Assembly: GCA_030148505.1 (NCBI GenBank)
Contig: JASBTI010000016.1
Coordinates: 186,001 to 250,000, forward strand
Direction: 5' to 3'
Length of the DNA: 64,000 nucleotides
From: Rhodanobacter sp.
GTDB lineage: Bacteria; Pseudomonadota; Gammaproteobacteria; Xanthomonadales; Rhodanobacteraceae
The position numbers and the translations under genes are program-made. The notes under the pieces were generated by a model. It saw only the letters and a list, made by a program, of their open reading frames with translations, was not told the origin of the DNA and did no database searches. Below, piece after piece: positions 11,948-51,564 of this stretch. Positions within the stretch are counted from its first letter, which is position 1. Each line of letters starts with the position of its first letter.

Positions 11948-12623
11948 GGGGGCCGGACCTTGGATAGGGAGCGACGCCAGCGTCGCCGGAAGGAGGCACG
12001 TAGCTTACGTGGTTGTATCGAACGCGCAACTGTTGCGGGCGCGGCTTCTGTCGGTGCGCGAGACATTGCCACAACAACGCCCTTTTTTTGTCCGCACACC
12101 GCCCTGAGTTCGTTGGCGCAGCTCCCGTGATGCTTGAGCCGGCGGCTATTGCCGCGGGTGCACAAGGTATATAACGACTGGTGATAAGGATCTTGGTGTC
12201 ATCCTATTGCAATGCAGCAATGATTGAGGCAGGATCAAGTTGCAGCAGGAGCCAGGGGAGTCGGAAGCAGGCAGCGATTATTACGCGCCCACCGCCTCCG
12301 TGACGCGGGGATTGGAATAGCGAAATTCGCGCGCCTTGGCGCAGGATTTCGCCGCCTCTCCTCTCCGCCTCCCTGTTGTCGGCTTTCGCTGAAGAGTACG
12401 AATTGCCAGACGCCGAGCGCTTGCCGAGCGCTTGCCGATCAGTCTGCTGAACCCTTTTCTATGTATCTGTTCCCGGCTGCCACGGCGCCGGGTTGTGGCG
12501 GGTTGCGTCCAGCTTTCAACGCCAGTGAGTATCTACCGCAAGCCATGGCGATGGTCTGTTTTGCATCAATAGACGTCTAGACGTCTATTGATGATTTGCC
12601 GATTACAGCAGAGGAGCAAGTCG
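11948..12623. other. 676-bp intergenic region between uppP and the TorF-like porin
   Basis: Divergent promoter region. On the uppP side it has a small GC-rich hairpin near 11970-11990. The middle contains a run of seven T (about 12083-12089) and an 11-bp direct repeat CGAGCGCTTGC in tandem (12413-12434). The ORFs in the track here (for example 12224-12580) are low-complexity and unsupported. The porin-proximal end holds the perfect 30-bp palindrome described separately. I looked for a GG-N10-GC sigma-54 promoter and did not find one. Confidence 0.6.
12564..12593. promoter_or_regulatory. Perfect 30-bp palindrome with two tandem met boxes
   Basis: A palindrome with no mismatches whose core is AGACGTCTAGACGTCT (12571-12586), flanked by CATCAAT and ATTGATG. 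AGACGTCT is the consensus met box bound by the MetJ repressor, which needs at least two adjacent boxes. ArsR-type SahR regulators of methionine genes also bind palindromes. It ends 30 bp before the porin ATG, where a repressor would block the promoter or initiation. Whether this organism has MetJ or SahR is not visible here. Confidence 0.7.
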
Positions 12624-13776
<1,153 letters not shown>

Positions 13777-13797: not shown

Positions 13798-15150
13798 ATG
13801 AAAGACCTTATGTCGTTCCGCCACGCGCGTGGCCTGCCGGCATGGATGCCGATATTGTTGCTGATCTGCCTGATGTTGCTGGCGCCAACCTCGTATGCCG
13901 CCGAGGCGGCTGCGCCTGTCGTGGACAAGGGCGATGTGGCGTGGATGTTGACCTCTACCTTGCTGGTGTTGTTGATGACGGTGCCCGGACTGGCTTTGTT
14001 TTATGGCGGGCTGGTCCGCTCAAAGAACGTGCTGTCGGTGCTGATGCAGGTGCTGACAGTCTTTTCGGTGATCGTGTTGCTGTGGATGATCTACGGCTAC
14101 ACGTTTGCCTTCGACAGCGGTAATGCTTTTATCGGCCATGCCGACAAGCTGTTCCTGCGCGGGGTCACCACGACATCGCTGGCGGACACCTTCACCGCGA
14201 CCGTGAAATTGCCGGAATTCGTGTTCATCGTGTTCCAGGCGACGTTTGCCGGTATCACCGGTGCCTTGATCGTCGGCGCGCTGGCGGAACGCATGAAGTT
14301 CGGCGCCGTGTTGCTGTTTTCGGTGCTCTGGTTCACCTTCGCCTACATTCCCATCGCCCACATGGTCTGGGGTCCGGGTGGCTTCATGCTGACGCGCGGC
14401 GCACTCGACTTCGCCGGTGGCACGGTGGTGCATATCAACGCGGGTATCGCCGGTCTCGTCGGCGCCTACCTGCTCGGCCCACGCATCGGTATCGGTCGCG
14501 AATCGATGAAGCCCCATAACCTGACCTTCACCATGATCGGCGCTTCGCTGCTGTGGGTCGGCTGGTTCGGCTTCAATGCCGGCTCCAATCTGGAGGCGAA
14601 TGCTGGCGCCGCGCTGGCGTTTATCAACACCTTGGTGGCCACGGCGGCAGCGGTGCTTGCATGGCTGGTAATCGAGCGCGTGCTCAAGGGCAAGCCGTCG
14701 ATGCTCGGCGGTGCCTCCGGCGCGGTGGCGGGTCTGGTCGCGATCACCCCGGCTTGCGGCACGGTTGGCCCGATGGGTTCGATCATCATCGGTGTGGTGG
14801 CCAGTGGGTTCTGCGTCTGGGGGGTCAGCGGCCTGAAGCGGCTGTTGAAGGCCGATGACGCGCTGGATGTGTTCGGCGTGCATGGCCTGGGCGGTATTGT
14901 CGGAGCCTTGTTGACCGGCATCTTCACGGCACCGGCTCTGGGCGGCACCGGTGCGGCGGATTTCTCCATGCTTCATCAACTGGGTATCCAGTCTCTCGGT
15001 GTTGGCGTGACCCTGGTCTGGAGCGGCGTGGTCTCGCTGATCTCCTACCTGATCGTCAGGGCCGTGTTCGGCAGCCTGCGGGTCACCGAGGAAGACGAGC
15101 ATCAAGGTCTCGACATCACCACGCATGGTGAAAGTGCCTACGAGGCGTAA
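13798..15150 (+). CDS. amtB: AmtB, ammonium transporter
   Basis: 450 aa. A cleavable signal peptide (to about YAAEA, residue 35) precedes 11 transmembrane helices, as in E. coli AmtB. Motifs include the start of the mature core DVAWMLTSTLLVLLMTVPGLALFYGGLVRSKN, the pore region DFAGGTVVHINAGIAGLVGAYLLGPR containing the first pore His, and DVFGVHGLGGIVGALLTGIF with the second. AmtB trimers conduct ammonia and are plugged by GlnK under nitrogen excess. A strong terminator follows the stop, separating this unit from glnA. Confidence 0.96.
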   Translation: MKDLMSFRHARGLPAWMPILLLICLMLLAPTSYAAEAAAPVVDKGDVAWMLTSTLLVLLMTVPGLALFYGGLVRSKNVLSVLMQVLTVFSVIVLLWMIYGYTFAFDSGNAFIGHADKLFLRGVTTTSLADTFTATVKLPEFVFIVFQATFAGITGALIVGALAERMKFGAVLLFSVLWFTFAYIPIAHMVWGPGGFMLTRGALDFAGGTVVHINAGIAGLVGAYLLGPRIGIGRESMKPHNLTFTMIGASLLWVGWFGFNAGSNLEANAGAALAFINTLVATAAAVLAWLVIERVLKGKPSMLGGASGAVAGLVAITPACGTVGPMGSIIIGVVASGFCVWGVSGLKRLLKADDALDVFGVHGLGGIVGALLTGIFTAPALGGTGAADFSMLHQLGIQSLGVGVTLVWSGVVSLISYLIVRAVFGSLRVTEEDEHQGLDITTHGESAYEA

Positions 15151-15301: not shown

Positions 15302-15317
15302 TGGCACGGACTTTGCC
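15302..15317 (+). promoter_or_regulatory. Sigma-54 promoter of glnA
   Basis: TGGCACGGACTTTGCC fits the RpoN consensus TGGCAC-N5-TTGCW in all but the last base, with the obligatory 10 bp between GG and GC. The start of transcription would be near 15328, leaving a 25-nt leader before the glnA ATG. Confidence 0.88.
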
Positions 15318-15352: not shown

Positions 15353-16762
15353 ATGTCCGCCCAGAAAGTGCTCGATCTCATCCAGGAACACGAGGTCGAA
15401 TTCGTCGACTTCCGTTTTGCCGACATTCTCGGCGTGCACCACCATGTCAGTTTCCCGGCTCACGCCATCGATGAGTCGACCTTCGAGGACGGCAAGATGT
15501 TCGACGGCTCGTCGATTTCGGGCTGGAAGGGCATCAACGAGTCGGACATGGTGCTGATGCCCGATCCGGACACCGCGTATCTCGATCCGTTCAGCGCCCA
15601 CACGCTGCTGGTGTTGCATTGCGACGTACTTGAGCCGTCGACGATGCAGGCCTACGGGCGCGATCCCCGCTCGATCGCCAAGCGCGGTGAGGCCTACCTC
15701 AAGTCCACCGGTGTGGCTGATACCGCGTTCTTCGGTCCCGAACCGGAATTCTTCATCTTCGATTCGGTGCGCTGGCAGAACGATATGGGCCGCGTGTTCT
15801 ACGAGATCGAGTCCGAGGAGGCGCACTGGAGTTCGCGCAACAAGTACGACGAGGGCAATACTGGTCATCGTCCGGGCGTGAAGGGCGGCTATTTCCCGGT
15901 CAGTCCGGTCGACTCGCTCGGTGACCTGCGTGCCGACATGTGCAAGGTGCTGGAGTCGCTGGGTCAGACGGTGGAGGTGCATCACCACGAGGTAGCAAAT
16001 GCCGGCCAGTGCGAAATCGGCGTCAAGTTCAATACCCTGGTGAAGAAGGCCGACGAGCTGATCACCATGAAGTACGTCGTCAAGAACGTGGCCCACCAGA
16101 ACGGCAAGACCGTCACCTTCATGCCCAAGCCGATCGTCGGCGATAACGGCAGCGGCATGCATGTGCATCAATCGTTGTCCAAAGACGGTACCAACCTGTT
16201 CGCCGGCGATCTTTACGGTGGTCTGAGCCAGACCGCGCTGTGGTACATCGGCGGCATCTTCAAGCATGCCAAGGCAATCAACGCGTTCTCCAATGCCACC
16301 ACCAACAGCTACAAGCGCCTGGTGCCGGGTTTCGAGGCGCCGGTGATGCTGGCTTACTCCGCCCGCAACCGCTCGGCCAGTTGCCGCATCCCCTATGTGG
16401 CCAGCCCCAAGGGCCGCCGCATCGAGGTGCGCTTCCCCGATCCGATGCAGTCCGGTTACCTCACCTTTACCGCACTGATGATGGCCGGGTTGGACGGCAT
16501 CCTCAACAAGATCGATCCGGGTGCACCGGCCGACAAGGATCTGTACGACCTGCCGCCGGAAGAAGAGAAGAATATCCCCCAGGTGTGTTCCAGCCTTGAC
16601 GCGGCGCTGGAGGCACTCGACAAGGATCGCGACTTCCTCAAGGCCGGTGGCGTGTTTACCGACGACTTCATCGACGCCTATATCGAATTGAAGATGAAGG
16701 AAGTCACCCGCTACCGTGCCAGCACCCATCCGTTGGAGTTCCAGATGTATTACGCGGGTTGA
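15353..16762 (+). CDS. glnA: GlnA, glutamine synthetase type I
   Basis: ATP-dependent ligation of ammonia to glutamate; 469 aa, the GSI-beta length. Signatures: [20 protein letters not shown] (latch/N-domain), PEPEFFIF at the metal site, [14 protein letters not shown], the ATP-binding [17 protein letters not shown], and the adenylylation Tyr in [13 protein letters not shown] (about residue 398), so activity should be controlled by GlnE. Starts at the ATG 25 nt after the predicted sigma-54 start site. Expression is expected to rise under nitrogen limitation through NtrC. Confidence 0.97.
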
Positions 16763-51375: not shown

Positions 51376-51564
51376 CTCGGCGTCCCTCTCGTTGGTTGGT
51401 AAAGAGAAGGATGCAACGGGCGTGCCAATAGCTGGTTCGAGTCCTGGGGGGGTGACCTGCATCGCGCGACTGACGCAGCACGTCAGCAGCTGTCGCGAAC
51501 TGGCATGAATTTCCGTTTTAGTCACCGCATGTTCACACGCTCGGAGTAACTATCGGTCTGCGTC

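Follow-up and report, generated by a model that had tools for sequence, protein, structure and literature searches.

A conserved double met box as a putative MetJ operator before the torF-glnK-amtB unit of Rhodanobacter

The DNA analysed here is a 64,000-nucleotide stretch of a Rhodanobacter sp. genome, hereafter the window, in which nitrogen-assimilation genes follow a putative outer-membrane porin. The porin (12624..13379, + strand, 251 aa) is of the TorF family (Gcw_chp; TIGR02001/PF09694), and a ribosome-binding-like site, GAGGAG, precedes it (12611-12616). On the same strand lie glnK, encoding a P-II nitrogen regulatory protein of 112 aa (13438..13776), and amtB, encoding an AmtB-type ammonium transporter of 450 aa (13798..15150); these family assignments agree with the gene identities given in the original prediction. 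Next comes the neighbouring glnA gene for glutamine synthetase (15353..16762, +), then an ntrB-like kinase gene and the open reading frame of an NtrC-like regulator. A sigma-54-type -24/-12 element, TGGCACGGACTTTGCC (15302..15317, +), stands before glnA and belongs to this neighbouring unit, not to the porin. Before the window porin itself, no TGGCACG-N4-TTGCW element with up to two mismatches was found, nor did a search near the operator detect a sigma-70 promoter. Two more sigma-54-like elements lie on the minus strand of the window, at 51427 and 38667 (0 and 1 mismatch, respectively). The contig scan gave a single relative, a Rhodanobacter MAG, and it is the 88%-identical porin of a Rhodanobacter MAG that the genus assignment is based on.

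Upstream of the porin lies a 30-bp palindrome, CATCAATAGACGTCTAGACGTCTATTGATG (12564..12593, no strand assigned). It equals its own reverse complement over its full length, as first proposed, and the symmetry stops there, with bases 12563 and 12594 unpaired. Its core, AGACGTCTAGACGTCT (12571-12586), consists of two directly adjoining met boxes, box 1 (12571..12578) and box 2 (12579..12586), neither assigned to a strand. Both read AGACGTCT, which is the exact MetJ consensus quoted in PMC4239095, so that the predicted tandem of consensus boxes is indeed present, and with it an array of at least two 8-bp boxes at a gene start. The double box occupies positions 38-53 bp upstream of the porin's start codon, and the palindrome ends 30 bp before the ATG (12624), the spacing originally given; no T run is found beside it. 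At this composition, palindromes of at least 30 bp are expected 0.00018 times per window and 0.01 times per genome. The second-longest perfect palindrome of the window measures 18 bp, and in Markov simulations (n = 100) the longest palindrome per run was 14-26 bp, which bears out the earlier judgement that chance is an improbable origin. In the 3.68-Mb genome AGACGTCTAGACGTCT occurs once, against 0.0005 occurrences expected.

Of 26 Rhodanobacter units, 19 have the boxes, with at most one mismatch, before torF, as do all 7 units of two further genera; none were found before torF in 15 units of more distant genera. The box-bearing promoters are spread over several porin clades. Over 26 orthologous promoters anchored on the site, column identity is 0.871 in the 16-bp double box vs 0.32-0.34 in the flanks; as the sites were chosen by motif match, the in-site identity (87%) is raised by selection. 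We give more weight to the contrast between site and flanks, and to the distance to the start codon, which is fixed at about 50-70 bp. Some species have a third met box, and the array then keeps its 8-bp period. The outer arms of the palindrome (7 bp each) are not conserved: in the other 25 sites the symmetry extends outward by 0-4 bp. What is conserved is therefore the double box rather than the full 30 bp, and the longer palindrome represents a species-specific extension of the operator. Conservation before the same porin in relatives, a check put forward with the original prediction, is thus found in most sampled Rhodanobacter and in two genera beyond. Judged from this distribution, Rhodanobacter and its relatives have long maintained the boxes in front of the genes for the porin and ammonium uptake. 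Six Rhodanobacter units are without boxes and MetJ was found in five of those six genomes, so that the link between MetJ and the operon is dispensable. Note that the porins at L035 and L036 (genomes G001, G008) were not counted among the operons, having no glnK behind them; each is a solitary TorF porin in front of glnA that has a sigma-54 element and neither glnK-amtB nor met boxes.

The regulator itself, whose presence had been proposed as a further check, is encoded in the same genome (C34:330880; PF01340, E 2e-35; above the cut-off of the NCBIfam MetJ equivalog). Of 40 Rhodanobacter genomes, MetJ was detected in 39, the sole miss being a 79%-complete genome. In an alignment to E. coli MetJ (entry 1cma), the contact strand reads VRKITVSIP vs VKKITVSIP, with KITVSIP identical. 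The base-contacting residues of this beta-strand, which we take to be Lys23 and Thr25 (E. coli numbering), are conserved in the alignment to 1cma. MetJ is needed for the methionine genes anyway, and its conservation is hence no evidence on the torF operon. The Rhodanobacteraceae protein also has a long K/A/P-rich, histone-H1-like C-terminal tail of about 30-170 aa after the ribbon-helix-helix domain, seen in L012:1489-2115 (own genome, C34), L074-L102 and L188-L196; the MetJ of another family in the same order (f9) is without it.

Tandem boxes are also found before methionine genes, as had been suggested for verification. Of 30 Rhodanobacter metJ loci, 29 carry a tandem box (0-2 mismatches) 169-173 bp upstream of the metJ start assumed here. 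The window's own genome has tandem boxes before metJ and metX-metB (2 mismatches each) and further boxes among sulfur and aspartate-family genes, between cysB and cysG and between thrC and leuA, as well as before an amino-acid permease gene; the complete genome G030 has them before metJ, metX, and genes for aspartokinase and a TonB-dependent receptor. Taken together across these genomes, the sites indicate that the motif is that of MetJ. The thrC-leuA met-box-like site is conserved between the window's genome and G030 (L105:1501-1516; L168:2020-2035). In the former, the tandem boxes of metX are directly upstream of a -35-like TTGACA. In both, the metX leader contains a SAM-I riboswitch (L007:2877-3046; L155:1996-2163), and metX thus seems to be under double SAM control, at the DNA and the RNA level. 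Whole-genome box counts are enriched at one mismatch, though many matches are intragenic, and we therefore placed weight on intergenic, conserved sites; at three mismatches the counts show no enrichment over the reversed pattern and were left out of the evidence. Tandem-box-like sequences occur inside genes of these GC-rich genomes, so that a single occurrence is weak evidence. Sites at C23, C26 and C40 were left out of the operator set. A met-box-like palindrome between convergent genes (L106:1501-1516; L150:2013-2028) resembles a bidirectional terminator and is a trap for motif scans; the sites at C10:14659 of the window's genome and at L150 of G030 were rejected as operators on these grounds.

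In many relatives the boxes are accompanied by a nitrogen-type promoter. Allowing at most one mismatch, 12 box-bearing Rhodanobacter torF promoters contain a sigma-54 element, mostly 54-66 bp upstream of the boxes, and two porin-less loci also carry the element with boxes. In these relatives the predicted start site is followed by the boxes at a distance of about 30-40 bp, and with the two elements side by side, nitrogen and SAM control appear to be stacked there. In five units the sigma-54 element (at most one mismatch) stands without boxes, and in a sixth boxless unit the element has two mismatches; in the window's clade the boxes are kept and no recognisable sigma-54 element was found before torF. 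The boxes also persist through rearrangement: where the porin has been lost (L139, apparently only fragments; L140, wholly), sigma-54 element and boxes still stand before glnK-amtB, and where glnK-amtB has been lost (L204, L212), they still stand before the porin, with glnA then following. None of 22 other glnK loci, including the second glnK-amtB of the window's genome (C5:63451), has boxes, and most of them have a sigma-54-like element. The sigma-54 element in most box-bearing relatives, the boxes outlasting porin or glnK-amtB loss and the unconserved arms are points that go beyond the original prediction.

These data lead us to read the site at 12564-12593 as a probable MetJ operator (roughly 85%), whose double met box would control the torF-glnK-amtB unit. 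SAM-loaded MetJ dimers would bind both adjacent boxes cooperatively and block transcription of the whole unit, which, given such a block, is proposed to be expressed when SAM or methionine is scarce. MetJ binding, SAM dependence, repression and co-transcription of the three genes are what we infer from the sequences. In sigma-54-bearing Rhodanobacter, MetJ could form a roadblock on the nitrogen-regulated promoter or act on an overlapping second promoter, and in the window's clade the boxes would act on a promoter other than a recognisable sigma-54 one.

Could another regulator use the palindrome, its likeness to met boxes being coincidental? An ArsR-type SahR or SamR comes to mind, as SamR is the predicted methionine regulator in Xanthomonas-group genomes without MetJ, and ATC...GAT, the ends of the SahR/SamR signature ATC-10nt-GAT (PMC4239095), are present within the 30 bp. 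The spacing is 22 here, however, and the arms are not conserved; the conserved core is exactly two, sometimes three, 8-bp met boxes, and the same motif occurs at a fixed place before metJ itself. We regard a regulator of this kind as unlikely. The original prediction had left methionine control to SAM or SAH: comparative evidence favours MetJ, and with its signature unmatched the SAH-SahR alternative is not needed.

The palindrome might instead act at the RNA level, as a 5'-UTR hairpin that influences translation or stability. The transcript is predicted to fold into a 13-bp hairpin (-16.9 kcal/mol), and the predicted leader of sigma-54-bearing relatives includes the boxes; but any operator of such symmetry folds likewise, complementarity outside the 16 bp is not preserved, the other sites pairing there over 0-4 bp, and the 8-bp period with its third box suits MetJ, not a hairpin, making this reading more improbable still. 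The least credible reading is a palindrome without function, arisen by chance or terminator-like, although similar terminator-looking sequence does exist between convergent genes (C10:14659 in the same genome; L150 in G030): the site lacks a T run, lies close before a gene start, has an expected count far below one, and is conserved across species amid diverged flanks.

A MetJ operator at this place suggests that methionine/SAM status may control genes normally run by nitrogen shortage. We tentatively go one step further, at somewhat less than even odds, and propose that, through MetJ, a sigma-54 nitrogen promoter receives a second input that senses SAM, and that in the window's clade the unit has moved from nitrogen to methionine control. 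MetJ bound in the early transcribed region would stop RNA polymerase, and porin and ammonium uptake would be switched on only under a joint shortage of nitrogen and SAM. The window's clade would keep a further glnK copy, driven by a sigma-54 promoter of its own, with the torF unit released to methionine control. An extra P-II copy was indeed found in 6 of 6 window-clade genomes without the torF sigma-54 element vs 3 of 19 others (Fisher p 0.0005), an association that is suggestive only, as the six genomes form one clade; two of them showed no amtB next to the additional P-II gene.

The arrangement resembles known MetJ regulons in its tandem AGACGTCT-type boxes, the conserved MetJ contact strand, the box before metJ itself, the methionine and aspartate-family targets, and sites usually within about 75 bp of a start codon. 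It differs in its host, Rhodanobacteraceae, in its target, in the combination of boxes with a sigma-54 promoter in relatives, and in the tail of MetJ. Published regulon studies place MetJ in other gammaproteobacterial orders, one including Xanthomonadales genomes, none with MetJ (PMC4239095), the other not naming Xanthomonadales (PMC3228920), and metJ is reportedly missing in Xanthomonas campestris (PMC6230763). The methionine genes of Xanthomonas are under SamR regulation (PMC4239095) and a SAM-I riboswitch (PMC7270179); such a riboswitch also precedes metX here, but metX combines it with a met box, and the window site is without a SamR-type motif. With sigma-54/NtrC-controlled glnK-amtB units the arrangement shares the gene pair and the -24/-12 element of many relatives and of the other glnK-amtB locus; unlike them, the window copy carries boxes and lacks a recognisable sigma-54 element, the reverse of the other unit in the same genome. 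In E. coli, MetJ activity is linked to prolonged nitrogen starvation via YeaG (PMC6299236), a connection different from the operator described here. Full-text searches, with most subscription journals outside their scope, returned no report of MetJ controlling amtB, glnK or a TorF porin, consistent with the original view of the porin/ammonium-methionine link as undescribed.

With this finding the MetJ regulon would reach a bacterial family beyond the published regulon studies and would take in genes of nitrogen assimilation. The finding also raises the question of why ammonium uptake or a TorF porin should answer to SAM. The promoters with sigma-54 only, with sigma-54 and boxes, and with boxes only may offer a natural series for a rewiring from nitrogen to methionine.
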